Origin: a virus
Strand: one strand, 5' to 3'
DNA: 33,754 nucleotides
Virus record (IMG/VR): IMGVR_UViG_3300005529_000075
Coordinates: 1-33,754 of that record
Every line of letters begins with the position of its first letter. Position 1 is the stretch's first letter. The position numbers were made by a program, and so were the translations under genes. The notes under the pieces were generated by a model, which did not search any database, was not told where the DNA came from, and saw only the letters and a list, made by a program, of their open reading frames with translations. Of the stretch, positions 5,488 to 32,067 are shown piece after piece.

Positions 5488-6120
5488 ATGCAGGCCACAT
5501 CACGTTTCGGGCCTACTAGACGTTCCCAGCCGAACGGAAACCAGACTATTTGCCTCCAACTGCTCGAGAAGTTCTCTCCGCTCATTCAGGCCATTTCGCT
5601 CAAGATGGGCGTCACCTATTCTCTGGCGAAAGAGGATAGGGAAGACCTTGTGGCCCAAGTCACAATGAAGATTTTTGCCGTGGACTGGGTAACTCTCCAC
5701 CAGGAATCGAACGGGCGCGACCCTTCTGATTACTGTCGTTCGCTGATTCTCAATTCCATGCGCAAGGAAGTCAGGAGAATAAAGGCTAATGGGTTTAGAG
5801 GCTTGGGAACGATGGAAGTAGGCCACATTCCTCAACCCGAAGACGTGGAACTGACAGAATCGGAAAAGAAACAGCCATCGGAAGAATCTGAACTCGAGCA
5901 CGCCGCCCGCGATCTAGCACGCAAGGCCCAAGCCGTTCTTACTCCTGCCCAATTAGCGGTTGTCGAAATGCTTTTCGGCTTTGATGGCGGAGGCGAGCGA
6001 AGTATCGAGCAGACAGCGAAAGAACTGGGCATCTCCCGCCGTGAAGTCTCGGAATTAAGCATCACCGCCATCGAAGCTCTCCGCCGCCACCTGAAACGCC
6101 GCTCGGTATCTTTTTCATGA
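5488..6120 (+). CDS. Phage-encoded sigma-70-family RNA polymerase sigma factor
   Basis: The 210-aa protein has region 2 in about residues 24-100 (LLEKFSPLIQAI, then EDREDLVAQVTMKIFAVDW, then YCRSLILNSMRKEVRRIKANG). An acidic linker spans 115-140, and region 4 lies at 150-205 (LTPAQLAVVEMLF and a helix-turn-helix in RSIEQTAKELGISRREVSEL). Such two-domain proteins redirect host RNA polymerase to phage promoters. The gene starts one base after the GroES-like stop. Its last codons contain the first CTCGGTATCTT element, and the seven other copies lie downstream among structural genes, so it is the natural candidate reader of those sites and may be autoregulated. An anti-sigma factor is not seen. 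Confidence 0.85.
   Translation: MQATSRFGPTRRSQPNGNQTICLQLLEKFSPLIQAISLKMGVTYSLAKEDREDLVAQVTMKIFAVDWVTLHQESNGRDPSDYCRSLILNSMRKEVRRIKANGFRGLGTMEVGHIPQPEDVELTESEKKQPSEESELEHAARDLARKAQAVLTPAQLAVVEMLFGFDGGGERSIEQTAKELGISRREVSELSITAIEALRRHLKRRSVSFS
6102..6119 (+). promoter_or_regulatory. Repeated late element 1 (CTCGGTATCTT)
   Basis: The core CTCGGTATCTT (6102-6112) is followed by TTTCATG. It lies inside the final codons of the sigma-factor gene, 15 nt before the start of the small membrane protein (6117), and is the first of eight copies. If it is a promoter it would drive the fibre-type genes up to 14154. Confidence 0.6.
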
Positions 6121-6266
6121 TGATGATTTGGTGTGCGCTCGCCTTTCTCGTGGGTTTCCTTGCGGGGCTTTCAACCCGCTGGATACGCATTCAGTTTGAG
6201 CAGTTGCACGCCAAGCTCGATTCCCTGTTGGGCAAGGCCAAAGTGAACGTGTTTCCCCGGAGCTAA
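6117..6266 (+). CDS. Small membrane protein, 49 aa
   Basis: ATG 6117 overlaps the sigma stop codon (ATGA). The product begins MMMIWCALAFLVGFLAGL, one hydrophobic segment at residues 3-19, followed by a basic stretch (TRWIRIQ) and a short amphipathic tail. This is a single-pass inner-membrane topology with an N-out or short N-in end. Small phage membrane proteins of this size include spanin- or holin-like helpers and superinfection-exclusion proteins, but nothing here decides between them. Three ATG codons in a row leave the exact start open. The next gene begins 3 nt after the stop. Confidence 0.6.
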   Translation: MMMIWCALAFLVGFLAGLSTRWIRIQFEQLHAKLDSLLGKAKVNVFPRS

Positions 6267-6269
6267 CCC

Positions 6270-6971
6270 ATGCCTGCATACATTACCGAGCCGACAGTTC
6301 AGACCTTCCCGCCTGTAACCATCCCGTGCGTCATGCCCAGTGCGCCCAACTACAGTTTCGGCTCTCTGGATGACTACGCCGCGAACGCCGCGCTCGGCGC
6401 CCAGATTTCTTCGTATTCGATTACGTCCAACGTGGTGACGTTCACCGTGACATGGCCTTATACCAAGCCCTCTCAGTTTTCGAGCGGGAACACGGTCGTG
6501 GTCTCTGGCGTGGCGTCGCCCAACGACTTCCTGAACGGCTCATACAGCGTGACCGGAGTAACGAGTACCACGTTCACGGCTGCCCTGACGCACGCCAATG
6601 TCAGCGCAACCGCGATTACCGGCGAAGCCGACCGTGCTGGGACACTGGATGCCGAAGTTGCCGAGAACATCCCTGCCAATGGAACCGCAGGGCGGCAGTT
6701 TGCCGTTAGAGCCTTTGCGGGCCTGAATCAGAACTCTCCCGCGGTGACCTGGGAAACCAAGACCGGTGGCACGGTCTCGGCGATCAGCGTTCAACTTCAG
6801 GGGGCCATCCGCGATCACGATGCCGATTACGCGACCATTGACACTTCGACGGCCACGGGTGGGGAAGTGCGAACGGTAGCTCTGGGGCAGAATCGCTGGA
6901 ACTTCCTGCGTATCCGGCTCAACACTTCGACCAACACCAACGGCACGATTATCGCCAAGTTTGTGCTCTAG
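6270..6971 (+). CDS. Putative virion protein with shared beta module
   Basis: This 233-aa protein is rich in Ser/Thr/Gly/Val and has no cysteine cluster or membrane segment. Residues 46-120 form a module of the type SNVVTFTV...GNTVVVSGV...FLNGSYSVTGVTSTTF...THANVS...TGEA, which recurs in the proteins at 27022 and 27717. The C-terminal half (GGEVRTVALGQNRWNFLRIRL) looks like a jelly-roll or receptor-type beta domain. The composition and its place at the head of the fibre cluster point to a capsid decoration, fibre or tail-associated protein. The exact role is not assignable. Confidence 0.65.
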   Translation: MPAYITEPTVQTFPPVTIPCVMPSAPNYSFGSLDDYAANAALGAQISSYSITSNVVTFTVTWPYTKPSQFSSGNTVVVSGVASPNDFLNGSYSVTGVTSTTFTAALTHANVSATAITGEADRAGTLDAEVAENIPANGTAGRQFAVRAFAGLNQNSPAVTWETKTGGTVSAISVQLQGAIRDHDADYATIDTSTATGGEVRTVALGQNRWNFLRIRLNTSTNTNGTIIAKFVL

Positions 6972-6974
6972 GCC

Positions 6975-7349
6975 ATGTGGCACGACGCCATCATGCTCGC
7001 AGTGTTCGTCGCGCTAGCCGCCTACGTGGTTGAGCGCCGTCTGCGCACGCACTCGCAAAACCTCTATCACGCCTTGTCTGACGAATTGGCTGCTCTGATG
7101 GCCGGACATTCTCAAGCCCTTCATACGGGTTTCAGCGATGTCCATGATGTGCTCGAGAAGCACGGAGCGCGGGTCGAAGCGGCAGTCGAAGCAGCCGAAG
7201 CAGGAGCCCGGCATACCCGTCAGTTGGTAGAAGTTGCAGGCTCTGCCGAGATGTGCAGCTTTTGCGGGCTGATTGTGGCTCGCTACGAGAAGCTGCCCGA
7301 CGACCGTATCCAGTGCGAAAACTGCCGGCAGAAGGGCGCGGATGCCTAA
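6975..7349 (+). CDS. Membrane-anchored coiled-coil / zinc-ribbon protein
   Basis: In this 124-aa protein, residues 5-19 form a hydrophobic N-terminal anchor (AIMLAVFVALAAYVV) followed by arginines. An Ala/Glu/His-rich helical region, likely a coiled coil, spans about 28-90. A C-terminal zinc ribbon has C94, C97, C114 and C117 (CSFC...CENC). A membrane anchor plus a cytoplasmic zinc ribbon is an unusual combination for a gene between virion proteins. I do not recognise a family. The gene overlaps the next start by 8 nt (7342-7349). Confidence 0.6.
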   Translation: MWHDAIMLAVFVALAAYVVERRLRTHSQNLYHALSDELAALMAGHSQALHTGFSDVHDVLEKHGARVEAAVEAAEAGARHTRQLVEVAGSAEMCSFCGLIVARYEKLPDDRIQCENCRQKGADA

Positions 7350-8472: not shown

Positions 8473-8479
8473 GGACGAA

Positions 8480-10941: not shown

Positions 10942-13409
10942 CGACTCCATTTCGCAACACAATCAAAACCTATCTTCATCCGGTCTTCGGCGGATTGGTC
11001 GCAGGTGACATTCCTGCCGCTACTCCTGTAGTCAAAGGCGTAATCTCTGTAGGAGTGGCTTTCTGGGGCACGGGCTATGGCCCTGCTCCCGCTGCTACTT
11101 CGGGTTCGCTCTCGCTCACGCTGATGCTTGACGGAGCTGAATTACCCGCCATTGTGACCGGGCCGCCCTTCAGCTTTCAGCTCGACACCACGCAACTGAA
11201 TGATGGCACTCATACCGTCTCGTTCTGCGTAAAGGCTTCTACTTCCGCCGTTCAGTATTCGGCTGACCAAGTTCGCTCACTCGCACAAGAGTTCGTAGTC
11301 GCCAATCATGGGCAAGTCTCCGAAGGGCCACAGACTATTCCGGTAGGCGGCGGCTGGATGCACTCGGTAATTGACCCTCCGACGCCTGACATCTACAACT
11401 TCCCCGGCACTCCGCTGCCGTCCAAATCTGTTCCGCTGGCCTACGTCCCAGTACCTTCAGCGAACGGCAACATCGCCATGCGCGACCCGAGCCGCTGGTG
11501 GGTTGAGCCCATAACTTCCGTGCGCAACGGCCTCTACACCAGTTGCCCCCGCGTCTTTACTACTCAGTCGGGCGGGGCTGTGGTCAAGATGTACAACCCC
11601 GAAGCCCAGGGAGGACTGCCTCAGTCACGTCCTCAGCTTCGGATGCACCAGAACGCTGACGGCGGGCGGAACGTCAACATGGTTGACCCGTACTCAACCA
11701 TCGCCGCCTACCCCAACCAGCCCGGGCACTGGCTGGCAATCGAGGCTCCCGGACGGCTTTCGCACATCCATCCTGATGGTTCCGTAACCGTCATTGCTGG
11801 GTTCCAGAAAGACACAGCCACACTCCCTTACGATTTCCGCGACACGACCGTGCCGGACAACCTGCTCTACGCCCGTGGGTCAGCACTCCCGCCGAACAAT
11901 CATGTGTGCAGTCCGAACGACTGCCCGACTGACGTGTGCTTTGACCCGCGTGACCCGCACATCGTTTATGTCTGCGCCTATGGCTCCCATGCCATTGTGC
12001 GCATTGACATCACGGATGAAGGGAACCCTCTCCTGTCCTTCTACGCCGGGCAGGATGGTCATGCGGGCTACGCCGAAGGCCCTGCTCTCCAGGCTCTCTT
12101 TAACAAGCCCTACTCAATCACCATGCGGGAAGACGGCACGATGATTGTGGCCGACTTTCAGAATCATGCGCTGCGAGGAATTACGCCTGATGGTCAGACG
12201 GTCTTCACCATCGCGGGCGGGAATCTAGCTGGTCCGGTTATCGCCATGAACCAGATGACCGTTACCCTGCGTGACAGTTATTCGTCCCCCGGCACGGTGC
12301 CGATTGACGGCTCAACTGTTCCCTATCCGCAGTGCGTTCGGGTTCTTTCAACTGGCGACATCGCTATCTGGGAGGGGTGCACTGCAACTGTTCGTCAGTT
12401 AAATTGGGGCGGAAACTCTCTGACCCGCATGGCTGCCTGTGAAGGTGTCATCAATCAAGAAGCCTGGGCGTGGCTCGACGTTGATGTCAAGGGAACTTGC
12501 GGACCGGTAGATGACATCGGCTTGGTTATCTCGAATGCCGCCGCGCTACGTCTCGGAAATGGCACAGTACCGTTCGCCAAAACGAGTATCTATCGTCTCC
12601 CGGTGGAGAATCGCGCCAACGTCCTCCAAATGGCGGCCAATGGCGGATTCGGAATTTCCGATGGCGAGAACGTCTATTCCCAAGAGACTTCCGGACATTA
12701 CCCGTGGGTATTCGCGTTCTCTCGTACTGAGTGCCGATTCGTCTCAATGGGCTACGGACACAACGGAATTTCTGGCTTCCGGGCGAAGTTGCCGACCGAC
12801 CCATCCTATTTGACCTACACCAAGCCCTACCAGCAGAACTGGCTCAATGGGTTGCATATCTGGAAGACGGGCACCGTGTCCTCGTGGCCGTGGGGCTCAC
12901 GTCCTGCCTTCTCCACTCTGCACGGTGAGTACGGACACGGCTATCTCGGGCTAGCCAACTTCGATGATCTCGCTTCGATGTCTGACGCCGACCTAGCAAC
13001 ATTCTTTTCAGGCGGCATGGAAGGCGGCATCGCGCGTCCCGAGATCACGGGCAACGATATGCGCGACCTGATCTATTTCGCTCGGCGCATGGCATTGCAG
13101 ACGGGCTCGCTCCATCCGGTAAAGCCCGGCCCGTCCAGTCCCGATGTAACGCCTCCCGTTATCAGCGGGATCTCATCGAGTCGAAATGGCAACTCGATCA
13201 CCGTCTCTTGGACTACGAACGAGCCCGCTATCGGCTATGTGGCCTTTGGGGTGGGAACGTCCTATGTGCATGAATGGAGCCCACTGGAATCAGCCTATTC
13301 GACGCAGCACTCAGTGACTTTCGATGTCATGGATGGGCAGATTCATTACGTGATTGTTGCAAAGGACGTAGCAGGGAACGTCGCCAAATCTCAAACTCTT
13401 GTCGTCTGA
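10938..13409 (+). CDS. Large Ig-like / NHL-propeller / FnIII protein
   Basis: This 823-aa protein overlaps the kelch gene by four bases (ATGA). About residues 35-125 look like an Ig-like fold (SLTLMLDGAEL... FSFQLDTTQLNDGTHTVSF). About 270-480 contain NHL-type propeller repeats (GRLSHIHPDGSVTVIAG, NKPYSITMREDGTMIVADF, NHALRGITPDGQTVFTIAGG). The last 90 residues (TPPVISGISSS...VAKDVAGNVAKSQTLVV) are a fibronectin type III domain. All three modules are adhesion or binding domains. The protein has no signal peptide, so it is more likely a virion receptor-binding or fibre protein than a secreted host factor. No glycosidase motif is recognised. Confidence 0.75.
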   Translation: MTTPFRNTIKTYLHPVFGGLVAGDIPAATPVVKGVISVGVAFWGTGYGPAPAATSGSLSLTLMLDGAELPAIVTGPPFSFQLDTTQLNDGTHTVSFCVKASTSAVQYSADQVRSLAQEFVVANHGQVSEGPQTIPVGGGWMHSVIDPPTPDIYNFPGTPLPSKSVPLAYVPVPSANGNIAMRDPSRWWVEPITSVRNGLYTSCPRVFTTQSGGAVVKMYNPEAQGGLPQSRPQLRMHQNADGGRNVNMVDPYSTIAAYPNQPGHWLAIEAPGRLSHIHPDGSVTVIAGFQKDTATLPYDFRDTTVPDNLLYARGSALPPNNHVCSPNDCPTDVCFDPRDPHIVYVCAYGSHAIVRIDITDEGNPLLSFYAGQDGHAGYAEGPALQALFNKPYSITMREDGTMIVADFQNHALRGITPDGQTVFTIAGGNLAGPVIAMNQMTVTLRDSYSSPGTVPIDGSTVPYPQCVRVLSTGDIAIWEGCTATVRQLNWGGNSLTRMAACEGVINQEAWAWLDVDVKGTCGPVDDIGLVISNAAALRLGNGTVPFAKTSIYRLPVENRANVLQMAANGGFGISDGENVYSQETSGHYPWVFAFSRTECRFVSMGYGHNGISGFRAKLPTDPSYLTYTKPYQQNWLNGLHIWKTGTVSSWPWGSRPAFSTLHGEYGHGYLGLANFDDLASMSDADLATFFSGGMEGGIARPEITGNDMRDLIYFARRMALQTGSLHPVKPGPSSPDVTPPVISGISSSRNGNSITVSWTTNEPAIGYVAFGVGTSYVHEWSPLESAYSTQHSVTFDVMDGQIHYVIVAKDVAGNVAKSQTLVV

Positions 13410-14154: not shown

Positions 14155-14254
14155 CAGGAGGTCGCGGAGAATCGCCAGAGCCATTGTTCGGGCTGCTCCC
14201 CCAAGCGGCCCGCCCAATGTTTGCTCGGTAACTTTATTGCAAAGGGGAGCGTAG
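14138..14254 (+). CDS. Possible 38-aa basic ORF (weak)
   Basis: ATG 14138 opens a 38-codon frame overlapping the end of the preceding gene and ending exactly at TAG 14252-14254, just before the next ATG. The product is Arg-rich at the N-terminus (RRSRRIARAIVR). GGTACAGCCGTGCGGTG upstream has no good ribosome-binding site, and the frame runs over the CTCGGTAACTT element, so it may be a chance ORF within a 100-nt intergenic region. Low support. Confidence 0.2.
   Translation: MPESSNRRSRRIARAIVRAAPPSGPPNVCSVTLLQRGA
14224..14241 (+). promoter_or_regulatory. Repeated late element 2 (CTCGGTAACTT)
   Basis: CTCGGTAACTT (14224-14234) is followed by TATTGC, 31 nt before ATG 14255, with AAAGGGGAG as ribosome-binding site between them. 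It is the A-variant of the core shared with 32049. It would head the terminase unit 14255-16670. Confidence 0.6.
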
Positions 14255-14464: not shown

Positions 14465-14837
14465 TGTTTACGAGATGACGAACCAAGCTCAGGACGAGAT
14501 CGCCGAAGCCGCCAACGAGAGCATGGAACAGGAAGGCTGGCCGCGCAAGATTCCCAAGCGTGGCAAGACCTCCTACATGAGGCGTGCGCTCATCCGCATC
14601 TTCGCCATGAAGACGGATGAAAGGCTTACTTATACGCCCCGCAACGGCTTTGAGGAATCTGCGCTGGCAATGTTTAACGTGGTGACAGCGGAAAAGTCTC
14701 ACTCCGTAGCGGCATGGAAGGAAATCAGGGAGACCATCGGCGAGAAGATTGGGACGAACTGGAAAGCTACGATGGATGAACTTGAGCCGAAAAGCCGTCT
14801 CTCGATTGACATTCCCACGGCTGACCGGAAACAGTAA
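14445..14837 (+). CDS. Possible terminase small subunit
   Basis: The 130-aa protein starts at GTG 14445 with GAGGTAGAGA upstream (ATG 14475 is an alternative) and ends TAATG, overlapping the start of the large terminase. Its position fits a small terminase, which recognises the packaging site and feeds DNA to TerL. The sequence is highly charged and helical (AQDEIAEAANESMEQEGW, RRALIRIFAMK, AWKEIRETIGEKIG), consistent with a DNA-binding helical oligomer. I see no clear helix-turn-helix signature, so the assignment rests on context. An unrelated head-packaging accessory protein is the alternative. Confidence 0.5.
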   Translation: MPQKRPDVYEMTNQAQDEIAEAANESMEQEGWPRKIPKRGKTSYMRRALIRIFAMKTDERLTYTPRNGFEESALAMFNVVTAEKSHSVAAWKEIRETIGEKIGTNWKATMDELEPKSRLSIDIPTADRKQ

Positions 14838-16411
14838 TGCCCAGGTTCGAACAGCGCAGCTCGGCTAATTCACTGTTCGCCAATTACGCCGGGCCGCGCA
14901 AGCCTCCATCTCCGCAGCAAATCAAGTTTCACACCGACCCGGCGACTTACCGTCTCTATGGCGGCGCGAAGGGTGGCGGGAAGTCTCTCGCTCTTTTGTG
15001 GGAGGGGGTGAAGTGGTGTCTCCGGGTACCTGGGGCAAACGTCCTGCTCTTACGCCGAACCTTCCCCGAGTTGAATAAAGGTCTCATCAGGCACTTTGAG
15101 CTTTACATCCCCCCCGCGGTCTATGGAGGAAGACGACACTACAACGCCAGCGAGCACACAGTCACGTTCCAGAACGGCTCCAAGCTATTTTTTGCTTCGT
15201 GCCAGCACGAGAAAGATGTCATGGCCTTTCAGGGGCAGGAGTTCGTCTTCATTGGGATTGATGAGGCAACGGAGTGGACGTTCGAGATGTTCGAATTTCT
15301 CACTCTCCAGAACCGCTGCCCGGTAAAACGAGATATTGACGGCCACGAAGTTGTGCCCTGCATGGCGCTAGGTTCTAACCCGGGAGGTATTGGGCATCCC
15401 TGGGTGAAAGCTCTTTTCATCGGCGAGAAGCAGGATGACGGCACCTACAAACGCACCGAAGAGAGTGTCAGAAAACGTATTCCCGAGATGTCCCGGGTCA
15501 CGCTTTCAGATTACTCGTTCATCCCGGCCAAAGTCTTTGACAACCCTGCCTACGCAACCGACGAAAAGTATCTCGACAAGCTGAAGACGGCGAACAAAGC
15601 CTGGAAAGACCGCTATCTCTACGGCTCGTGGGAAACCTTCGAAGGCTCCTACTTCGAGAAGTACGATCCTGCGGAAACCAAGATTGATAAGTGGATGGCC
15701 CGCAGGCTGGTGGAGTCTCAGCCGTGGCAAGCAAAGTGGCTAGGCATTGACTGGGGCTATAACCACTGGGCCTCTGTGTTCTGGTTTGCCACAGTCGAGA
15801 TTAGCGATACAGACGGCCAGAAACGAGACGTGACGCTAGTCTATAGGGAGCTGGTTGTCAGACAGGCGGGAGAAAAAGAGCTGGGCCGGAACATCGTAGA
15901 ACTGACGGGCAAAGAGAAAATCTCGGCCGTCTATCTCTCGCCTGATGCCTTTGCGAAGCGTGGCGCCCAAAACACCATTGCCGAGCAAATTGGCGAGGTT
16001 CTGGTCGCTTCGCACCTGCCCTATCCAGATCCTGCGGATGATGACCGCGTAGGCGGAGCGCGGCTCATGGATCAGTTGCTTTCGCTGAGACCGTGCGACC
16101 TGCTCATCTCGGAAGATTGCGGGGAACTGCTCGAATCCATCCCCCTGCTGCAGGTAGATGAGAAAAACCGCGAAGACGTGAAGAAAACGGAGCTGAAATC
16201 CGACGACATCTATGACGGCTGCCGTTATGGGCTGAAATCGAAGCTCGGCGGAACGAAGACTCCGTGGGAAATAGAGCGCGAGCGGGCTTTAACGGCCTGC
16301 ACGACTCCGCAAGAGAAGTTTTGGACCGATCTGGCCCTACAGCAGAGGAAAAAGCAGACCAAAGTGGTGCGTTTTATGAAGCCGCGCACCTTCGGAGCGT
16401 TCAATGCGTGA
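14837..16411 (+). CDS. terL: Terminase large subunit
   Basis: The 524-aa protein is the motor ATPase and nuclease that pumps phage DNA into procapsids. The Walker A motif is GGAKGGGKS (42-50), Walker B with the catalytic acid is FVFIGIDEA (136-144), and the coupling motif LGSNPGG is at 179-184. The nuclease domain begins at WLGIDWGYNH (301-310), with D305 as the first metal-binding aspartate, and a further acidic motif YLSPDAF lies in the second half. The length is normal for TerL. The start overlaps the upstream gene (TAATG), and the end overlaps the next by 8 nt. The head-module order that follows (portal, scaffold, capsid) supports the call. Confidence 0.95.
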   Translation: MPRFEQRSSANSLFANYAGPRKPPSPQQIKFHTDPATYRLYGGAKGGGKSLALLWEGVKWCLRVPGANVLLLRRTFPELNKGLIRHFELYIPPAVYGGRRHYNASEHTVTFQNGSKLFFASCQHEKDVMAFQGQEFVFIGIDEATEWTFEMFEFLTLQNRCPVKRDIDGHEVVPCMALGSNPGGIGHPWVKALFIGEKQDDGTYKRTEESVRKRIPEMSRVTLSDYSFIPAKVFDNPAYATDEKYLDKLKTANKAWKDRYLYGSWETFEGSYFEKYDPAETKIDKWMARRLVESQPWQAKWLGIDWGYNHWASVFWFATVEISDTDGQKRDVTLVYRELVVRQAGEKELGRNIVELTGKEKISAVYLSPDAFAKRGAQNTIAEQIGEVLVASHLPYPDPADDDRVGGARLMDQLLSLRPCDLLISEDCGELLESIPLLQVDEKNREDVKKTELKSDDIYDGCRYGLKSKLGGTKTPWEIERERALTACTTPQEKFWTDLALQQRKKQTKVVRFMKPRTFGAFNA

Positions 16412-16670: not shown

Positions 16671-16690
16671 CTCGGTATCTTTTTTAATGA
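16671..16690 (+). promoter_or_regulatory. Repeated late element 3 (CTCGGTATCTT)
   Basis: CTCGGTATCTT (16671-16681) begins at the base right after the stop codon of the preceding gene. ATG 16703 is 32 nt downstream, and GAGGGAAAA serves as ribosome-binding site. It would head the portal unit. Confidence 0.65.
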
Positions 16691-17011: not shown

Positions 17012-17160
17012 TGCCTTTCGCCTCCAAAGCGCAGCAAAGGTTCCTGCACGCTCATCCCGAGAAAGTGGGCGGCAAGCAGGCCCTGAGCGAGTGGGATAAG
17101 GCGACCGACTTCTCGAACCTGCCCGAAAAGAAGGCTCCGAGCAAAAAATCGCATGGCTAG
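17011..17160 (+). CDS. Short conserved phage protein (MPFxSKAQQRF type)
   Basis: The 49-aa protein begins MPFASKAQQRFLHAHPEKVG and ends NLPEKKAPSKKSHG. Many phages encode a 40-60-aa protein that starts 'MPF.SKAQ.rf..a.hPe' and ends '...f..LPek', usually close to portal or terminase genes. This matches that pattern well. The function is unknown. The first base overlaps the stop of the preceding gene, and its end overlaps the portal start by 8 nt, so translation of all three is coupled. Confidence 0.75.
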   Translation: MPFASKAQQRFLHAHPEKVGGKQALSEWDKATDFSNLPEKKAPSKKSHG

Positions 17161-19459
17161 CGTCCCTGAAATCACCGAAGACGGCCAAGAACCATCTTTC
17201 GCAGACGCTGCCGAAGGCTCGCAAGACGAGCAGCAGCCCGAAGAGCTTTCCGACGATCTAATCGCCGAGCTGCGCACGCTCATCAAGAAGTTCTCGCTCG
17301 AGGAAATGCCAAACCGCCGGCAGGAATTGCTCAAGGCCCGCGAAGGCCGCTTCTTCTGGGAAGGCTACCACTACCCGATGTACAGCGCCGACAATGGCGT
17401 CTGGGCGGTGCCTGAATCAGGCGGGTTTCCGTGGATGTCCGGGCAGGATGAGCGTTCCAAGCGTTTCTACTACGTCCACAACATCTATACGCCTCTGGGC
17501 AAGACCCTGATCTCGACTTTAGCCGGAACCCCGCCTCCCGTCCGGTTCATGCCCTGCAATCCGCTCGAAATATCAGATATTGAGTCAGCCAAAGAAGCGG
17601 AGAAGTATCGCAAGCTCTTTTACCGGGCTGTGGACATCAGCCAATTCTTGCGTGACCTCGCCCGCTACGCCTACACCGATGGCCGCACCGTGGGCTGGGT
17701 GAAAAAGGTTACTGACGGGAAACGCTTTGGGTTCAATGCTGACGGCACAGAAAAGACGCAGGAAGTGGCCGAATTATACGGAGTGCTCGAGACGAAAGTC
17801 CCGATCTCGCTGCGCGACCAATCAGAGTTCCCTTATCTCCAGATCAGTTACGAACGGCATATCAGTGCGGCGAAAGACGAGTTTTCCGACAAGGCCGACA
17901 AGATCAAATCCCACGAAAGTGCACCGGGGGAAGACAGGTTTGACCGCATCTGCCGTTTAGCTGTCCTTCAGGGCACAGAGCAGGCTACGAGCACCGGAGA
18001 GTCCTACAACCATCTGGTCACGGAGCAGCATACTTGGATTCGCCCATCCGCATTCCGCATGATCGCAAACGAGACGAAGCGGGCCGCCCTTGCCGGAAGG
18101 TTCAAGCGCGGAATCCACGTCATCTACGTTGGCGAAACCTTCGTGAAGGCCACCGAAGAAAACATGGACGAGACCGTAGTGACCTTCCAGCCGATGAGCG
18201 GTGATGGGCAGGCTATCCCTGCTCTGGGAAGGTTCCTAATCCCGATTCAGAAACGACTCAATAACCTTGAGAACCTATTGCAGGAGAAGTACGAAAAGGG
18301 AACACCAATCAAGTTTGTTGATTCGAAGCTGATTGACTCGGAGGGATTGACCGATGCCGTAGCTTCGCCCGAGCAGTACGTCGAAGTCAAAAAGCCTGCC
18401 GGGGAACCGTTAGAAAACTTCTTCTTCAAAGAGCCCGAGCCTACCGCCTCAAACGACATGATGGCGATGATTAACAACCTGAAAGGCACGGACGCGCAGA
18501 TGGTTTCAGGCGCTCAGCCTGCCTTGTTTGGCGGTTCGATGACCAACGCCAAAGCTGCCGCCATCTACGCCCAGGCCAGGGACCAGGCTCTCGGCTCGCT
18601 GGCAATTACTTATGCTCCCATGAAGACCTTTCTCGCCAAGATCAACGAGTTGGCGGCATGGTCAGCGGAGACCCGCGAAGCGCAGACAATTAGTGGCCTG
18701 GTACCCGATGAACGGGGAACCTTCCAGAACGTGAGCCTCGATCTCGACAAGTTGCGTCAAGGCTTCTACAAGTGCGAGCCGGAAGTGGATGAAGGGCTGC
18801 CTGAATCTCCCTCGGCCCAGAGACAGGCGTTTATGAGCATGGTGCAGTTCATGCCTGACAATCCCATGTTCCAGCAGTTGATGCAGCAGCCCGATAACCA
18901 GTACCTGCTCAAGACTCTTACCGGAATCAAGGGTTTCACGGTGCCCGGCGCCGACCAGAGAAACGTGCAGCTCAAGGAAATCGAGCAGTTGCTCGAAGGC
19001 GAGCCAACCCTGCCTACTCCCGAAGAAATCCAGAAAGTCGCGCAGCACCAGACTATTCTCGAGGCTTCCGGGGCACCTTCGCCTCAGCCCAAGCCCGAAG
19101 ACCTAGTTAGGCCGAGCATTGAGATTGATACTGAGTGTGATGACCACCCGGTACATTGGGCCGAGGTTCAGCGTTGGATGTATTCCGAAGAAGGGCAGCA
19201 GGCCAAACTTATCAACCCTGCGGGCTTCGAAAATGTGAGATTGCACGGTCTCTTGCACAAACGGTCAATACAGGCTGGCCCCGATGCTGGCGTGCCCATG
19301 CAGGACAACGTGCCCAATCCCCAGAAGGCCATACAGGGCATGAGAACCAAAGCTGCGTTAATGGCGCACTCGGCATCAGGGCAACCCCCGATGGGACCGC
19401 CCGCGGCTCCGCCCAAGCTCCAGAACTCCGCTGCTAAAGCTCGCCCGCAAAATGCCTGA
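17153..19459 (+). CDS. Portal protein
   Basis: This 768-aa protein would form the dodecameric ring at the DNA-entry vertex that binds TerL and the tail. It follows the terminase genes and precedes the scaffold and capsid genes. The sequence has an acidic N-terminus (to about 40), then FFWEGYHYPMYSADNGVWAV, a long body with the stem/crown pattern of large portals, and a C-terminal stretch (SIEIDTECDDHPVHWAEVQR... RLHGLLHKRSIQAG) that I recall from portals of P22-like or unclassified phages. The length is close to P22-type portals (about 725 aa) and longer than HK97 types (about 400-500). A Gly/Pro/Ala-rich tail ends the protein. It overlaps the phosphatase gene by 8 nt. Confidence 0.82.
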   Translation: MASVPEITEDGQEPSFADAAEGSQDEQQPEELSDDLIAELRTLIKKFSLEEMPNRRQELLKAREGRFFWEGYHYPMYSADNGVWAVPESGGFPWMSGQDERSKRFYYVHNIYTPLGKTLISTLAGTPPPVRFMPCNPLEISDIESAKEAEKYRKLFYRAVDISQFLRDLARYAYTDGRTVGWVKKVTDGKRFGFNADGTEKTQEVAELYGVLETKVPISLRDQSEFPYLQISYERHISAAKDEFSDKADKIKSHESAPGEDRFDRICRLAVLQGTEQATSTGESYNHLVTEQHTWIRPSAFRMIANETKRAALAGRFKRGIHVIYVGETFVKATEENMDETVVTFQPMSGDGQAIPALGRFLIPIQKRLNNLENLLQEKYEKGTPIKFVDSKLIDSEGLTDAVASPEQYVEVKKPAGEPLENFFFKEPEPTASNDMMAMINNLKGTDAQMVSGAQPALFGGSMTNAKAAAIYAQARDQALGSLAITYAPMKTFLAKINELAAWSAETREAQTISGLVPDERGTFQNVSLDLDKLRQGFYKCEPEVDEGLPESPSAQRQAFMSMVQFMPDNPMFQQLMQQPDNQYLLKTLTGIKGFTVPGADQRNVQLKEIEQLLEGEPTLPTPEEIQKVAQHQTILEASGAPSPQPKPEDLVRPSIEIDTECDDHPVHWAEVQRWMYSEEGQQAKLINPAGFENVRLHGLLHKRSIQAGPDAGVPMQDNVPNPQKAIQGMRTKAALMAHSASGQPPMGPPAAPPKLQNSAAKARPQNA

Positions 19460-20282
19460 TCCCAACGCCAAGTACAGGGAGACTGGCTCAGCCATTGCCG
19501 GGTATGCCGAGCAAGGGCCATATCACTGCCAAGACTGCATTCACGCCCAGAACGGCTTTTGCGTCCATCCTGCGGTAGTAGCCGACCCGGAACTCCAGCA
19601 CCTGATGACGGAGCAGGGAATCCAGATCAATCCTGAGCGGGGCTGCTGCCGATATGTCAATCCCGGGCTGGTCGCGCTGCTCTTGAGGCACGGGGAAACC
19701 GAACTAAACGCAGAAAACAAGTTTCGCGCATGGCTGGACGTGCCTCTAGACAAAAACGGCCTACAGCAGGCACAGGACGCAGCCCAATTCATTCTCGCAA
19801 ACTATCCCGGCATTGTGCGCATCGTGTGCTCGCCATTGCAAAGAGCACAGCAGACGGCCCAACCGATCGCGGAGGCTCTGGGCATCCAGCCGGAGATAGA
19901 ACAGAGGCTCATCTCATGGCACTTGGGAGTGCTCACCGGGCAGGATAGGGACAAGTACAAAGACGTGCTTCAGGAGTACATTGAGAATCCCTCAGAACCT
20001 ATCCCGCAGGGCGAATCGCTTGACCAAGTGCGGGAGCGGGTAGGGCAAGCCATTGACGAAATTCTGGAAGAAGCCGAAGAACGCGGTCTAACGCTGGTGG
20101 TCACCCAATCCTCTGACATCTTCCCCATCTTGCAGCTCATGGAAGGTAAAGAGCATGGGGAAAAGTTAGACACGCCCATGACAGGCCCGGGCGGAGTGTT
20201 TGCGGTCTCGATTGATGGCGATGGGTTCAAAGCAGAAGTAGTTTTCGGGGAAGAGAAACCTGCGGAAATCGGAGCCAGCTAG
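19452..20282 (+). CDS. Cys-rich domain fused to histidine-phosphatase (PGM-like) domain
   Basis: In this 276-aa protein, residues 20-70 hold a cysteine cluster (C26, C29, C37, C65, C66: CQDC...FC...GCCRY) like the small Cys-rich domain found in some phage head proteins. Residues 73-262 follow the histidine phosphatase plan: LLRHGETELN (77-86, H80 the phospho-acceptor), CSPLQRAQQTA (126-136, R131), WHLGVLTG and QGESLDQVRERV. The second catalytic His expected in 'VVtHg' is replaced by Gln (VVTQSS, Q219), so classical phosphatase activity is doubtful. It lies between portal and scaffold, where a prohead protease often sits, suggesting a head-assembly role. It overlaps the portal gene by 8 nt. 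Confidence 0.82.
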   Translation: MPDPNAKYRETGSAIAGYAEQGPYHCQDCIHAQNGFCVHPAVVADPELQHLMTEQGIQINPERGCCRYVNPGLVALLLRHGETELNAENKFRAWLDVPLDKNGLQQAQDAAQFILANYPGIVRIVCSPLQRAQQTAQPIAEALGIQPEIEQRLISWHLGVLTGQDRDKYKDVLQEYIENPSEPIPQGESLDQVRERVGQAIDEILEEAEERGLTLVVTQSSDIFPILQLMEGKEHGEKLDTPMTGPGGVFAVSIDGDGFKAEVVFGEEKPAEIGAS

Positions 20283-20284
20283 TC

Positions 20285-20304
20285 CTCGGTATCTTCTTAG
20301 TAAG
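20285..20304 (+). promoter_or_regulatory. Repeated late element 4 (CTCGGTATCTT)
   Basis: CTCGGTATCTT (20285-20295) starts 2 nt after the phosphatase stop codon. The downstream leader of about 70-85 nt leads into the scaffold-like gene. It is followed by CTTAGTAAGAG, similar in position to the tails of the other copies. Confidence 0.65.
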
Positions 20305-22548: not shown

Positions 22549-22566
22549 CTCGGTATCTTTGTGATA
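22549..22566 (+). promoter_or_regulatory. Repeated late element 5 (CTCGGTATCTT)
   Basis: CTCGGTATCTT (22549-22559) starts 2 nt after the stop of the preceding gene and 189 nt before the major capsid ATG. A partial second copy, AGTCGGTAACGCTTTCGG, lies at 22569-22586. It would drive the capsid gene alone, with a terminator behind it. Confidence 0.65.
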
Positions 22567-22737
22567 GCAGTCGGTAACGCTTTCGGGGGCACGCATCCCG
22601 GCCTTTCGAGGCAATCACGGTAGAGCGGAAGCCGAGTGCAGTTTCAAGCCATTTGCCGCTAAACAGTTCGGCAGAGCGAAGCCGTCCGGCACCCGCCGGG
22701 AACCGCAGCGGAATGAGTCCCCAACTTTTGAGGCAAT
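22567..22737 (+). promoter_or_regulatory. Long capsid leader with duplicated RBS context and hairpin
   Basis: This leader of about 170 nt carries no gene. CTTTCGAGGCAAT (22603-22615) repeats as CTTTTGAGGCAAT (22725-22737). The second is the actual capsid ribosome-binding site followed by ATG, while the first is followed by CACGG. AGAGCGGAAGCCG (22622-22634) repeats as AGAGCGAAGCCG (22673-22684). A small hairpin CCGGC-ACCC-GCCGG lies at 22686-22699. A structured leader could tune capsid mRNA stability or translation. Confidence 0.5.
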
Positions 22738-24033
22738 ATGGCAGCTCCCAGCACTCTTGCACAAACCACAGCCCTGATGTACGAGCGCGTGCGCTCGAAA
22801 ATCTCTTTGCTCTATCCCCGCGAATCCACCTTCGGCGACATCATTGAACGAATTGAAAACGACCTGGTTTCCTCGCGTGCCATGCGCCTGCCGGTGCAGA
22901 TGTTTGCCGGTTCACAGCACGCACAAACGACCTTCGCCGGTTCCGATCTCGGCGTAGGCACCGCGACCAATTATCAGGTGTTCCAAACCACGCCTATCGG
23001 ATTCGTGCAGGCAACTAGCTGGTCGCTTGACTCTCAGTTCACCACTGAGAGCGGCGAGCAGGCCGTGGACAGCTTCGTCAAGCGCGAACTGAAAAACGCG
23101 CTGGCCGAGTTTGCCTGCTATCAGGATGTGGTGGCTCAGGGCGATTCGAGCGGCACCATTGACAGCGTTCTGGCAACTGCCTCCAGCCCGAATATTCTGT
23201 ATGTCAACAACCCGTCGAAATTCCGCGACAACGGCCTCTATCTCGTGTTCTCGGCCCTGGGCGGAACCAACCGCGGCACGGTGCAGGTGCTTTCCGTGGA
23301 TGCTCTTGCGGGAGCCCTGTACATCGGCACGGGCGGCACAGTGACCTTCGGCAACATCATTGCCGGAGACTTGCTGCTCATCAACGGCGCCCCGGGAACC
23401 TCGACCAACACTTCAATCAATGGCTTGGCTTACATCCAGGCCGACCCGGGCAACACCGGAACGTATGCCGGACTCACCCGGTCATCGTTCCCCGGCAAGC
23501 TCCGTACCCCGCACGTCGCTGCCAACGGCGCTGCGCTAACCGCAGAGATGGGCCGTACCGCCATCCAGAAGATGCGGCTGCGCAACGGTGCCGAGTCTGA
23601 CGCTGATTTCACCTGGTACATGGGCCTCGACCAGGAGCAGAACGTCGAAGCCATCAGCTTGCAGACGCAGAGCGTCATCATTAATCAGGTTACCGGCTCA
23701 AACTCGGTTGATCCGATCAAATATGACGCCCCCAAAACCTTCGTCGGGCGCAAGATGAAAGTCTCGGCGACGGCGACTCCGGGCCGCATTGACGGCATCC
23801 AGACGAACCACTGGGTCAAGTCCTCGGTGCTCCCGGGCGGCGGCGATCCCCAAGTGCTCGCGTGGTCAGGCGTCAGCGAGTGGCCGATGTACGGCGCTTC
23901 GGGCGGTCTCGCTGCCGCGACGTTGACGTACCTCATCAACTTCTGGCAGATGATCTCCGACAACCCGGCTGCCGGCGTGTACGTTGACGGTCTGCCGATT
24001 CCCTCTGCGCTCCCGCTGGGCGTGAATAACTAA
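22738..24033 (+). CDS. Major capsid protein (HK97 fold, SU10-type)
   Basis: This 431-aa protein is expected to be the shell subunit of the phage head. It resembles the family of long capsid proteins typified by phage SU10 (DUF5309): N-terminal ALMYERVRSKISLLYPRES and FGDIIERIENDLVSSRAM, WSLDSQFTTESGEQAVDSF in the middle, then a beta-rich inserted domain (about 155-255) and a conserved helix-plus-strand core, with GRTAIQKMRLRNGAESD and DFTWYMGLDQEQNVEAISL. It has its own leader, ribosome-binding site GAGG and downstream terminator, as expected for the most abundant late product. The family assignment is from remembered patterns; the capsid role is well supported by context. Confidence 0.82.
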   Translation: MAAPSTLAQTTALMYERVRSKISLLYPRESTFGDIIERIENDLVSSRAMRLPVQMFAGSQHAQTTFAGSDLGVGTATNYQVFQTTPIGFVQATSWSLDSQFTTESGEQAVDSFVKRELKNALAEFACYQDVVAQGDSSGTIDSVLATASSPNILYVNNPSKFRDNGLYLVFSALGGTNRGTVQVLSVDALAGALYIGTGGTVTFGNIIAGDLLLINGAPGTSTNTSINGLAYIQADPGNTGTYAGLTRSSFPGKLRTPHVAANGAALTAEMGRTAIQKMRLRNGAESDADFTWYMGLDQEQNVEAISLQTQSVIINQVTGSNSVDPIKYDAPKTFVGRKMKVSATATPGRIDGIQTNHWVKSSVLPGGGDPQVLAWSGVSEWPMYGASGGLAAATLTYLINFWQMISDNPAAGVYVDGLPIPSALPLGVNN

Positions 24034-24050
24034 TCACGACTCACCTACTA

Positions 24051-24085
24051 AGGCCCTGTCGAACCTGACGGGGCCTTTGCCTTTC
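24051..24085 (+). terminator. Intrinsic terminator after the capsid gene
   Basis: AGGCCCTGTC (24051-24060), loop GAACCT and GACGGGGCCT (24067-24076) form a 10-bp stem with one G-U pair, followed by a T-rich tail (TTGCCTTTCC). It lies 17 nt after the capsid stop and right before late element 6, separating the two units. Confidence 0.8.
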
Positions 24086-24103
24086 CTGAGTATCTTTTTG
24101 ATG
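24086..24103 (+). promoter_or_regulatory. Repeated late element 6 (CTGAGTATCTT)
   Basis: CTGAGTATCTT (24086-24096) is the most divergent copy (two changes: positions 3 and 4 of the core). It sits directly after the capsid terminator and is followed by TTTGATGTG. It would restart transcription for the zinc-ribbon and fibre genes. Confidence 0.55.
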
Positions 24104-26972: not shown

Positions 26973-26992
26973 CTCGGTATCTTCTTTATAAG
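26973..26992 (+). promoter_or_regulatory. Repeated late element 7 (CTCGGTATCTT)
   Basis: CTCGGTATCTT (26973-26983) begins at the base right after the preceding stop codon, followed by CTTTATAAG. The ATG at 27022 is 49 nt downstream with GGGGAGGAC as ribosome-binding site. A near-direct repeat ATCCGGG(G) lies in the leader. Confidence 0.65.
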
Positions 26993-27654: not shown

Positions 27655-27661
27655 GTTCATC

Positions 27662-27690: not shown

Positions 27691-27716
27691 CGTAACTCCT
27701 TCAGCGAGGTGAAGGA

Positions 27717-30700
27717 TTGTCGTTCAATTCGACTGGCTCCTCTCAAATTCCGTGGTCGCTGTTCGGGGGCCTCGACACCGAACTAGCCAGCCCTACGGTT
27801 CCCGAAGGACTGTCCCCAGACTGTCAGGATGTAGCCTTCATTCCCGGCCAAGTTGCTACCCGGCCCGGAGTGCAGCGACTTTTTGGTAGCCCTTTTGGGA
27901 CGATGGGAGTCACTTACGCCAAGACCTTTGTCCAGCCTGACGAGGAATCGGTCAACCTCTTTCTCGACTCGCTGGGCACCATGCGGATTCAGGACGTAGA
28001 TACCACGCCTGACAGCTATGCGACTCTCTTCAGCGTGGTTCCTAACACTTATGCATCGTCAGTCACCACCTTTGGCCGCGAGTACATGGCGTTTCACGAT
28101 GGGCAGAAAGCCAAAGACATCCCCCGGCAATACGATCCGAGCTTAGGCGTTCGGAGAATCACGCAGGATGGCCCAGCCTGCGGCCCAGGGAGTCTCACCG
28201 CTGCTGACGCTCCTGTAGTCACCATCCCGATCTCGACCATCGTTCCTAAAGGCCCGAAGACGATTCTGACGGCCGTCAATAACTCTGGCGTGGTGACGAT
28301 CACCACAGCTACGAATCACGGGCTGAACGTAGGCGACTCGGCACTCATTCAGGGCGTCTCTCAATATCAGTACAACGGCAACATCATCGTTGCCACGGTG
28401 CCTACTCTTACCAGCATCACCTATAACGCTATCGGCTCGGGCTGGCCTCCAGGCAGCGGTGGGCAGATCATCCCTCTGGAAGTGACGGTGACGACGACTA
28501 TCCCGCACGGGCTGATCTCGGGCGAGACCATCGTCATCACGGGCGATTCAGACAAGAACTACGACAACAGCACCACGCAGAGTCTCGTAGTCACGCTGGC
28601 TACGAATACCGTCTGCAACTTCTACAACGGGACCAATGCCGGGGCTTTCAGCCTGTTCTTTCCGGCAACTAATCCGCTCGCCACTTTCAGCTTTTTCGGC
28701 GACGACACGATCATGTTTAACCCCCAGAGTGAGTATCTGGGCGACATCCTGCCGGGTGTAGGAGCCTTTAATCACGGTGACTCTCTAGACCACAATCACC
28801 CGATGCAGGTGTGGGGCACGAATCCGCAAGGCTCGGCAGACGGGAATACTCAGGTCATCTGGGGCAACGCTAACTACAACTGGCAGATGACGGTTGTAGG
28901 CAACATTTCTTTCCCGGCGGCAGGGACGTACTACTTCAAAACGGTTCACGATGACGGTGCCTTCATCGGCATGGGCGGAGGCATTACCCATGTCAGCGGG
29001 CCGATGAATAACCCGGAAGGGCAGACGGTAACGGCTCAAGAAGGGCTGGCGGTTGTTTACGCGAACAACTCTAGTACCAGCTTCGCCGGCGTCAACGTCT
29101 TCAATGACACTTTCGCCGTCTCGGTTCCTGCTCCGGGCACGTATCCCTTCGAAATTGATTATTCGAACTGGGAAGACAAGCAGATTCTGACTCTGCAATG
29201 GTCTTCAGACGGCATCAACTTCAATACCCTGGTGCCCGGGAACCCGGCTTTCAATACCCCGCCAACCTGGACGGTAAAGAACGTCACTGGCACCCAGACT
29301 TTTACCTTTCTAGCTGTCTATGCCGTGGGTGAAGGGTTTGGGGGCATCATCACCGTGGGAGGCTTAGTCTCTCCCGGAACACATAAGCTCTGTGTCAGCT
29401 TTCAGACGGACACCGATTTCATTACCAAGCCCTGTCCTGCCGTCTCGTGGACATCGGCGGGCAGTAAGCGAGTCGTGGTCACAGGTCTGCCCATAGGGCC
29501 GCCCAATGTCAAAGCTCGCATCTGTCATTTCACAGGCGCCGGGGGAGGGAACTTTTTCTATATCCCGGTCCCTGCGTTAGATCCCGCGACGGGACAACAG
29601 ATCAGTACCTCGACGGTAGTCAATGACAACACCAGCACCACAGCCACCTTCGATTTCTCCGACAACACACTATTCTCAGGAATAGCAATAGACATTACCG
29701 GGAACAATCTTTTCAACCTGATTACGCTCGGACCTTGCGCCGGAGTCTTCGCCTACTCAAATCGGCTCTCCGTCTGGGGCGACACCAACAAGATTAACAA
29801 TCTGCTCAACATGGGGTTTGAGGGCGGAACCTCAACGCCCGGAGGGGCAATCCCGCTCGGCTGGACGGTTGGGTCAAACGGAACCCTGGTCAACGCGGGA
29901 GACTTTGAATTTGCCTGGAGGATTACGGGCATTGGAACGCCCAACATCACAGGGCTTTTGACCCAGCCCGCCTACCAGGATGACGTGTTCGTCCCCATTC
30001 TGACGCCCAACACGCTGTACACGTTTGAGATGTTCGCCTATTGCTCGGCAGCTCAAATGACGGGGCAGATTCTGGTTGACCTGTACAGCCCCACACAAGG
30101 TCTATTGGCGCGAGCCACGATCAACGCCTCAAGCATCGGAGTCGGAAGTTCTAACGGTTCTTTCGTCTCGGGCAACTTCTCGCAAGCAACTCCAGCCACG
30201 ATTCCGAGCGACGTGGTGCTCAATATCTATGGTTTCAACCTGCCGCTCAATCAGACAGTCACGATTGACGAGATGATGATGGTCTATACCTCGGAGCCTG
30301 TCTCTCCGGGGCAGGCACGATTCAGCTACGCCTTTAATCCTGAGAGCTTCGATGGCGTAACAGGTCTCTACGCAGTCGAGTATTCCGAGCCGCTGATGAG
30401 TCAGAAGATCATCCGCGACAACCTCTACACCCTGTCAGCAAACCATCTGAGCAGGACTACCGACAACGGGGTAGGGGAGCCGATCACGTGGACGAACTAC
30501 ACCGTCTCGGACATTGCCGGGGGCATGAGTGTCCGTTCTTTCGATGTGGGTGAGGGCTGGGGCATCTTCGCGGCTGAGTCGGGAGCCTACGTCTTTTCAG
30601 GTGGAGAACCACAAAAAATCTCGCAGGAAATTCAGACGCTTTGGAACTCGATTGATCCGGAACTTCGTCACCATGTCTGGGTGAAGAATGACCCGATTAA

Positions 30701-32048
30701 TCGGCGAGTCTATATCGGCGTGCCACTGACGTTCTACTCGCCAACCAACACGGCGTTCACGCCTCTTTCCTGCAACAAGATTCTGGTGCTCGATTACCGT
30801 GAACTTAATACCGCGGGCATGATTGAGATGGGTGCCCCGCTAGTCACCGGCTTTAGCGGCAAGATGCTGACGACCGATCTCAAGCGCAAATGGACAGTCT
30901 GGAACCTGCCCATGAACTGCGGCGAGATCATGGCGGTAGGAAACGACAACGAGCCTCAAATCCTCTTCGGCTCAGGCAATGGGCAGGGACTGAGTGGGGG
31001 ATTTGGTAACGCTTATCAGCTCGTAGATGGTCATTACTTCGATGACGATTACGGATCCATCGGAGCACTGAACGGGCAATCTACTCTCAGCTATGCCCAG
31101 TGGGTTGCTCTTGGCAACACGGGAGTCTGGCGACCGCAGGCAGCCTACTACGCGACTTACTTCTCCCCCTCGCATGAGCAGGAGCAGACGTTCCAGACTG
31201 GAAGCCAGCGGAAGCTCTACGGCTTCCTTGAAGCCTATGTCAGCGGCGTCGGAGAACTCTATGTGATTCCCCTGATGGACAGGCTGGGAAACTCCAGCAA
31301 GAGACCGCCCAAGAAACGAATCTTGTCTCAGACACCGGACACGGATACGGAATGGCCTCTGAACGTCCTGACTCAGAGGCTGGCTCTTTTGTTCTATGCG
31401 CTGCCGGGCGGAGTCACGGCTAGCCTGAGCAAGCAGACGATGACGATGGCGGTGGGCGTTCTGGTTGCTACTACGAATAACGTCAAGCTGACCACTCAGA
31501 CCATGTTTATCAGCGAAGGGGCGCTCACCACTTCGGGAATCGTGCTGCTGCCGAGCGAGTCTTTCAACTCCCAGCAGCATCCTTTCCTCGCGTACAGCGG
31601 CCCGACAAACCTGCTACAGAATCCGAGTTTCTGGAACTACACGCTCTCAAAACCAAATCTCAACGACTGGACGATTGACTCGGGCACGCCTGACACAATT
31701 CAGTACAACGATGGTGTGCAGAACTTCGTTGACGATCCCAACTCCATTGCCATCGGCACAGGGAACTTTGGAACGTCCGTCACAATGCACCAGACCATCA
31801 CAACCCAGAATGGGCACGTTTACACGTTCTCGTTCTGGGTGCTGGGCGATGGGTCAACGGGTACGGGGATTACGGTGTTCTGGAATGGGACAACGGAGTA
31901 CACGGTCACCGACCTCAACACCAGCATTCTTTACGTGCAGCACACGTTCTCGGTCACCGGGACAGGCAGCGACACGGTGAAGTTCACGCTAAGCGACAGT
32001 TCGGGCGGTCATGCGGTGCTGATTGATGAGTTTGCGGTCAACCCGTAG
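27717..32048 (+). CDS. Large tail-hub/fibre-like protein, PA14- and CBM-like modules
   Basis: The 1443-aa protein starts at TTG 27717 with a strong GAGGTGAAGG ribosome-binding site. Visible parts are an N-terminal domain, two 'VTITTA.HGL..GD' beta modules (about 188-243 and 255-308) and a PA14-like carbohydrate-binding domain (about 335-518; TYYFKTVHDDGAFIGMGGG, DYSNWEDKQILTLQW). Then come a jelly-roll of the CBM_4_9 type (about 695-860) and a central tail-hub-like block (YAVEYSEPLMSQKIIRDNLY; FDVGEGWGIFAAESGAYVFS, about 938-960). A second CBM-like jelly-roll (about 1290-1443) forms the C-terminus. The central block resembles P22-type tail proteins that bind the portal. It is probably a tail hub with glycan-binding modules for adsorption. 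No lyase motif is recognised. Confidence 0.68.
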   Translation: MSFNSTGSSQIPWSLFGGLDTELASPTVPEGLSPDCQDVAFIPGQVATRPGVQRLFGSPFGTMGVTYAKTFVQPDEESVNLFLDSLGTMRIQDVDTTPDSYATLFSVVPNTYASSVTTFGREYMAFHDGQKAKDIPRQYDPSLGVRRITQDGPACGPGSLTAADAPVVTIPISTIVPKGPKTILTAVNNSGVVTITTATNHGLNVGDSALIQGVSQYQYNGNIIVATVPTLTSITYNAIGSGWPPGSGGQIIPLEVTVTTTIPHGLISGETIVITGDSDKNYDNSTTQSLVVTLATNTVCNFYNGTNAGAFSLFFPATNPLATFSFFGDDTIMFNPQSEYLGDILPGVGAFNHGDSLDHNHPMQVWGTNPQGSADGNTQVIWGNANYNWQMTVVGNISFPAAGTYYFKTVHDDGAFIGMGGGITHVSGPMNNPEGQTVTAQEGLAVVYANNSSTSFAGVNVFNDTFAVSVPAPGTYPFEIDYSNWEDKQILTLQWSSDGINFNTLVPGNPAFNTPPTWTVKNVTGTQTFTFLAVYAVGEGFGGIITVGGLVSPGTHKLCVSFQTDTDFITKPCPAVSWTSAGSKRVVVTGLPIGPPNVKARICHFTGAGGGNFFYIPVPALDPATGQQISTSTVVNDNTSTTATFDFSDNTLFSGIAIDITGNNLFNLITLGPCAGVFAYSNRLSVWGDTNKINNLLNMGFEGGTSTPGGAIPLGWTVGSNGTLVNAGDFEFAWRITGIGTPNITGLLTQPAYQDDVFVPILTPNTLYTFEMFAYCSAAQMTGQILVDLYSPTQGLLARATINASSIGVGSSNGSFVSGNFSQATPATIPSDVVLNIYGFNLPLNQTVTIDEMMMVYTSEPVSPGQARFSYAFNPESFDGVTGLYAVEYSEPLMSQKIIRDNLYTLSANHLSRTTDNGVGEPITWTNYTVSDIAGGMSVRSFDVGEGWGIFAAESGAYVFSGGEPQKISQEIQTLWNSIDPELRHHVWVKNDPINRRVYIGVPLTFYSPTNTAFTPLSCNKILVLDYRELNTAGMIEMGAPLVTGFSGKMLTTDLKRKWTVWNLPMNCGEIMAVGNDNEPQILFGSGNGQGLSGGFGNAYQLVDGHYFDDDYGSIGALNGQSTLSYAQWVALGNTGVWRPQAAYYATYFSPSHEQEQTFQTGSQRKLYGFLEAYVSGVGELYVIPLMDRLGNSSKRPPKKRILSQTPDTDTEWPLNVLTQRLALLFYALPGGVTASLSKQTMTMAVGVLVATTNNVKLTTQTMFISEGALTTSGIVLLPSESFNSQQHPFLAYSGPTNLLQNPSFWNYTLSKPNLNDWTIDSGTPDTIQYNDGVQNFVDDPNSIAIGTGNFGTSVTMHQTITTQNGHVYTFSFWVLGDGSTGTGITVFWNGTTEYTVTDLNTSILYVQHTFSVTGTGSDTVKFTLSDSSGGHAVLIDEFAVNP

Positions 32049-32067
32049 CTCGGTAACTTATTAAGAG
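32049..32067 (+). promoter_or_regulatory. Repeated late element 8 (CTCGGTAACTT)
   Basis: CTCGGTAACTT (32049-32059) begins at the base after the preceding stop codon and ends 16 nt before ATG 32076, with GAGAGGG as ribosome-binding site. It is the A-variant, like element 2. It would drive the last unit, which continues past the window end. Confidence 0.65.

Follow-up and report, generated by a model that had tools for sequence, protein, structure and literature searches.

Genes and repeated elements of the window

The stretch of DNA analysed here (the window) is an entire record of 33,754 b; it represents a genome fragment, and counts given for the window phage are limited to that fragment. 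It carries the genes expected of a tailed phage, including a large terminase, a portal, a probable capsid and tail genes, which are preceded by genes for a cpn10 protein and a sigma-70-superfamily factor. The principal genes are as follows, "the relative" being the phage IMGVR_UViG_3300031718_000016 described below:

5488..6120, + strand: sigma-70-superfamily factor gene (210 aa, regions 2 and 4, ECF-like size), the proposed reader of the elements
14837..16411, + strand: large terminase gene (PHROG_979, E 1.8e-39), a putative late gene under the elements
17153..19459, + strand: portal gene (PHROG_156, E 4e-7), 67% identical in the relative
22738..24033, + strand: major capsid-position gene, between the scaffold-position and tail genes, 78% identical in the relative

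No PHROG match was returned for the gene at 22738..24033, and its position together with the relative suggests that it encodes the major capsid protein. A GroES-like (cpn10) gene (5100-5486) lies directly 5' of the sigma gene in both phages, while a histidine-phosphatase-family gene (19452-20282, 48% identical in the relative) is found between the portal and scaffold-position genes. The sole - strand gene called in the window is that of a serine recombinase (resolvase, 3431-4078), whereas the relative possesses a tyrosine integrase gene. A tandem array of a 27-bp unit (4.3 copies, 97% matching) occupies positions 1-115 and runs off the contig end.

A preliminary description of this DNA reported eight copies of a CTCGGTAWCTT element, proposed to be late promoters, and all eight were recovered at the same positions when these were rechecked:

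6102..6119, + strand: element 1, CTCGGTATCTTTTTCAT; predicted +1 G6119; overlaps the sigma gene end, upstream of gene 6270; same junction in the relative at 12626
14224..14241, + strand: element 2, CTCGGTAACTTTATTGC; predicted +1 A14241; precedes a small ORF (14255) and the small-terminase-position gene; relative counterpart 18182
16671..16688, + strand: element 3, CTCGGTATCTTTTTTAA; predicted +1 about 16688 or G16689; behind the terminase module, before 16703 and the portal gene; relative counterpart 20796
20285..20302, + strand: element 4, CTCGGTATCTTCTTAGT; predicted +1 A20302; junction of the histidine-phosphatase and scaffold-position genes; relative counterpart 25348
22549..22566, + strand: element 5, CTCGGTATCTTTGTGAT; predicted +1 A22566; precedes the major capsid-position gene; relative counterpart 27061
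24086..24103, + strand: element 6, CTGAGTATCTTTTTGAT; predicted +1 G24103; 3' of the capsid gene and a hairpin; junction without counterpart in the relative
26973..26990, + strand: element 7, CTCGGTATCTTCTTTAT; predicted +1 A26990; precedes gene 27022 and a gene for 1443 aa; relative counterpart 32254
32049..32066, + strand: element 8, CTCGGTAACTTATTAAG; predicted +1 A32066; precedes gene 32076, with a predicted leader of 10 nt containing AGAGGG; junction without counterpart in the relative

As had been described, five copies are identical (CTCGGTATCTT, at 6102, 16671, 20285, 22549 and 26973), two read CTCGGTAACTT (14224 and 32049) and one reads CTGAGTATCTT (24086), with an invariant T at position 14 of the window copies. 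The claims made for strand and placement hold equally: all eight copies are on the + strand, the - strand of the window contains zero matches to CTCGGTAWCTT, and every copy is either intergenic or no more than about 20 nt from the end of a gene, with another gene downstream. Nor is the element explained by chance, since the exact pattern occurs 7 times in the window against 0.02 expected from dinucleotide shuffles, and none of 100 such shuffles of the window reached 7 matches. The copy at 24086 has 2 mismatches to the pattern and is unremarkable by pattern alone, but it scores 16.1-16.3 with the joint weight matrix of the window phage and its relative, above every non-site in the window.

Directly 5' of element 6, and 3' of the capsid gene, lies a GC-rich hairpin (about 24050-24073) with a short T run; hairpin and element (24050-24103) possibly constitute a terminator-promoter pair. 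A terminator scan found no excess.

A close relative with the same element

Searches with single window proteins in viral and genome contigs found no relatives. An alignment of terminases led to distant relatives, and a portal alignment built from these led to one close relative, IMGVR_UViG_3300031718_000016 (48,515 b), in which the capsid is 78%, the portal 67% and the sigma factor 40-42% identical to those of the window phage; scans with sigma and capsid alignments returned no other relative. Gene calls in relatives were made with a simple codon-usage script and not a standard gene finder.

In a blind search of the relative for words enriched between genes, the best two 14-mers were CGATAACTTTCTAT and GCCGGTATATTTCT, both of which align with the block of the window. 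The relative carries ten divergent copies (CGRTANMTT-TYT), nine on the + strand and one on the - strand, each oriented as its neighbouring genes are:

12626, 16130, 18182, 20796, 25348, 27061, 29356, 32254 and 38292, + strand: nine copies (coordinates in reversed orientation)
42994, - strand: tenth copy, a joint-matrix match between two - strand genes

Ortholog mapping places copies of the relative at 6 of the 8 window junctions, namely sigma/6270, before the small-terminase-position gene, after the terminase module, phosphatase/scaffold, before the capsid gene and after gene 26193. In the window phage as in its relative, the final codons of the sigma gene run into the first copy. Moreover, the capsid gene keeps its element despite an exchanged upstream neighbour (gene 21731 precedes the capsid gene in the window and follows gene 24150 in the relative). 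Joint-matrix matches scoring at least 15 number 8 in the 34 kb window and 10 in the 48.5 kb relative, as against only 4 in 963 kb representing 79 loci of other relatives, which the portal search had brought in. When the sites of one phage are scored with the matrix built from the other, they rank only moderately, and the sequence of the element has thus drifted.

The relative contains both replication and structural modules. Its contig is probably a complete, circularly permuted genome, because exonuclease and RecT genes stand at its opposite ends in the same orientation; no terminal repeat was found in the contig. Its large non-structural ORFs encode DNA polymerase A (828 aa), AAA proteins, an integrase, RecT and an exonuclease, the rest being identified or too small for a T7-like polymerase. 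The 828-aa protein (L281, 1571-4057) is a fusion of DNA polymerase A with a uracil-DNA glycosylase domain at the N terminus.

Anatomy of the element

The joint consensus of the window phage and its relative is CGRTAnCTT-n6-R, with conserved columns C G R T A n C T T T Y T across the 17 + strand sites. Their arrangement is that of an extended -10 element, with CGR at -15 to -13 and TAnCTT at -12 to -7, such that the block bears the -10 signature TA---T at -12, -11 and -7. A T is found at predicted -4 in 18/18 sites and a purine at predicted +1 in 16/18, copies distant from start codons included.

We were unable to detect a -35 element: the best upstream hexamer occurs in 5/18 sites, as in random sets, and the joint value of the columns from -45 to -3 before the block never exceeds 0.5 bits (17 + strand sites). 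A second conserved element about 16 nt away, as in the bipartite promoters of phage 7-11, was likewise not found. Given 18 sites, there may nevertheless be a weakly conserved or structural -35 at the elements.

In about half of the copies a Shine-Dalgarno sequence stands at or just after the predicted +1, and the leader up to the start codon measures 8-16 nt. The start codons of the other half are distant (leaders of 50-170 nt, for example at the capsid genes), and these copies keep both block and purine. The predicted capsid leaders are long, at about 172 nt in the window (22566-22737) and 108 nt in the relative (L201, about 14796-14903). Two of the relevant gene starts are supported by alignment, gene 32076 by a PHROG_644 alignment from residue 1, and gene 12655 of the relative by alignment from residue 1 of window gene 6270. 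The copies share no conserved RNA fold (mean z 0.06, empty consensus).

The sigma factor

The sigma gene of the window matches TIGR02937 over residues 24-202 (E 3.7e-10), as does its 191-aa ortholog in the relative, which adjoins the same cpn10 gene (E 1.8e-7); both proteins match over the full length of the model, though below the curated cut-off of 42.9 bits. Region 4 (PF04545) is above cut-off in the sigma factors of both phages, which rules out a sigma of the gp55/gp36 type that lacks this region. Consisting of regions 2 and 4 only, in about 200 aa, the protein is ECF-like. The fold matches of its model are mostly sigma factors; the model is poor (pLDDT 58), and these matches are consistent with the assignment. 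Between the two phages, regions 2.1-2.4 are 57-61% identical and region 4.2 only 32%, as would be expected if region 2 does the reading. In the window, the sigma gene is not preceded by any copy of the element.

Searches among more distant relatives

A scan of viral contigs with a 17-bp motif pattern returned 99 stretches, about the chance level, and no contig with many copies, and a portal-based genome scan found nothing. The terminase alignment yielded relatives at 26-42% identity, and those examined have neither motif nor sigma, different intergenic repeats being present in some of them. The 21 other, more distant records searched yielded no sigma homolog, and the relatives' contigs scanned (79 portal loci) no set of motif copies; two scattered matrix matches in locus L215 were judged to be noise. 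Among the matches listed in a literature search with the core sequence there were only unrelated subjects, probably chance primer matches. That the motif travels with the sigma is consequently suggested by two genomes related by descent, and the absence of both from other, far more distant relatives is weak evidence.

In two of the distant relatives (L010 and L008), many of the gaps between genes contain arrays in which 7-bp units (ATCAGCG/ATATCAG) precede CACAGAG-type repeats and a AACCCAAGACCCAGGCACACACTCCGTGCCTGGGGCACCC hairpin repeat:

L010, 4333-4540, 6049-6190, 6446-6600 and 20189-20310: intergenic arrays
L008, 618-700, 13158-13200, 13547-13600 and 14895-14945: intergenic arrays

Proposed late promoters and alternative explanations

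The window presents what would be expected if a phage sigma directed late transcription from single-block promoters, namely a repeated directional block of about 8-12 bp before late genes, no -35 and an encoded sigma-70-superfamily factor. We consider it likely that the eight copies are phage-specific, extended -10 late promoters read by the host core RNA polymerase together with the phage sigma. The preliminary description had put forward phage-specific late promoters recognised by this sigma and proposed a search for the motif in phages with a homologous sigma; the relative has both, mostly at the same junctions, and their joint recurrence makes this the best-supported reading, in which we infer the promoter identity of the copies, their recognition by the sigma, their start sites and their timing.

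Under this model, the element-free sigma gene would be expressed first, from upstream transcription, and its product, with region 2 joined to region 4, would bind host core RNA polymerase. Region 2 would then recognise the extended -10 element CGRTAnCTT and melt the T-rich stretch, in which the T at -4 is invariant, and RNA would start at the purine just past the six bases that follow the block. Each copy would thereby open one of the late units, for packaging, portal, scaffold, capsid and tail, and in many cases the RNA would have an 8-16 nt leader beginning at the Shine-Dalgarno sequence. The order of expression, sigma early and units late, is suggested by position.

Several alternative hypotheses may be considered. 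A host sigma (housekeeping or ECF) might recognise the promoters while the phage sigma serves other genes, given that TAnCTT has T-12, A-11 and T-7 in common with the standard -10 element. However, there is no -35 above chance, matches to the sigma-70 consensus are no commoner than in shuffles, and the conserved CGR, C-9, T-8 and T-4 are not sigma-70-like, conservation at these positions not being typical of sigma-70. Moreover, 79 loci of more distant relatives are without sets of the element, the first copy of which, in both phages, lies at the end of the phage sigma gene. We therefore regard recognition by a host sigma as very unlikely.

The preliminary description had likened the block to T4 late or T7-type promoters, and named a T7-like polymerase elsewhere in the genome as an alternative to the sigma. 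The first comparison stands as regards a single block with no -35, but not as regards the T7-type form, the geometry being that of an extended -10. Promoters of T7 type, read by a single-subunit phage RNA polymerase from the missing part of the genome, would be consistent with a directional single block that ends just before a purine run at late-gene positions, and the window record, as a fragment, leaves room for another polymerase or activator in the rest of the genome. This alternative is weakened by the lack of any PF00940 match in the relative, whose genome is probably complete, or in the window fragment, whereas the phage T7 control gave E 1e-109. The large non-structural ORFs of the relative are accounted for by other functions, and the TA---T signature of the block also speaks against it. 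Searches for a T7-like polymerase in more distant relatives gave no match; these lacked a positive control, and no weight is placed on them. Overall, a T7-type system seems very unlikely.

It is more improbable still that the copies act at the RNA level, as processing sites, antitermination boxes or translation enhancers before ribosome-binding sites. Many copies do stand directly 5' of a Shine-Dalgarno sequence and start codon, yet no fold is conserved among them, and the roughly half that have no start codon nearby still keep the block and the purine at +1.

Finally, it is barely conceivable that sigma region 4 reads the block as the -35 half of a bipartite promoter of ECF type: the sigma does possess this region, and ECF promoters often have a strong -35, but in several copies the start codon follows the first C of CGR by 23-30 nt (two of these starts being backed by conserved N termini), so that a block acting as a -35 would place the RNA start inside the genes concerned, and genes 32076 and 12655, if they use their Shine-Dalgarno sequences, require an RNA start at or before the predicted +1, in which case the block is not a -35.

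Comparison with known systems

Phage promoters that consist of a single element are known from several systems. The middle/late promoters of phiEco32, read by gp36, possess a single element (tAATGTAtA), no -35, a start 6-8 bp downstream and few copies, located before middle and late genes (PMC8948821). The arrangement predicted here is similar, with a phage sigma in the host core, a single element, no -35 and few copies before late genes, albeit from sequence alone. The consensus differs (CGRTAnCTT), as does the sigma, which has region 4 whereas gp36 has no homology to it, and we found no sequence relation to the phiEco32 system in the phage collection.

Phage 7-11, in which late promoters read by gp47 are bipartite (GTAAtg-(16)-aCTA; PMC8948821), resembles the window phage in its region-4 sigma and in having eight promoters before late genes, but the copies described here have no second element. 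In phiEco32-like phages, sigma region 4 accompanies a -35 element (PMC8948821), whereas here region 4 is present and yet no -35 was found. A potential explanation, which we advance only tentatively, is that the sigma keeps its region-4 helix-turn-helix but has given up -35 reading, its promoters being reduced to one -10 block with a CG extension; this explanation predicts the divergence seen in region 4.2 (32%, as against about 60% for region 2). If true, region 4 without a -35 would contradict the phiEco32/7-11 rule by which sigmas with region 4 use bipartite promoters, and the sigma would be caught in transition to the gp55/gp36 condition. The 18 sites from two genomes provide a set for asking how a region-4 sigma works at promoters with no -35.

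T4 late promoters, read by gp55, consist of a single 8-bp box at -10 with no -35 and an AT-rich melting stretch downstream, and gp55, which has no region-4 equivalent, works with gp33 and the gp45 clamp (PMC2988020). The single box at -10, the absence of a -35 and a putative melting stretch downstream are shared with the elements described here, the T4 box being a TATA box. Likeness to T7-type promoters extends to a directional single block at gene junctions, but these need a single-subunit polymerase, which is absent from the relative.

The late promoters of Kayvirus vB_SauM-515A1 have a long -10 box (TGTTATATTA), no -35 and an initiating base 6 bp downstream (PMC7698491). They share with the present elements a long -10 box with no -35, a T extension after the box and a location in the structural-gene region; the sequence is different, and Kayvirus is a large Staphylococcus myovirus. 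For a phage lineage without a cultured member, the analysis offers a transcription map, drawn solely from nucleotide and protein sequence, of putative late genes, RNA starts predicted to the base and the protein that may direct them. Precedents for such promoters are already known in phiEco32, Kayvirus and T4, and by analogy the best reading is that the present system works like the late promoters of phiEco32 and Kayvirus.
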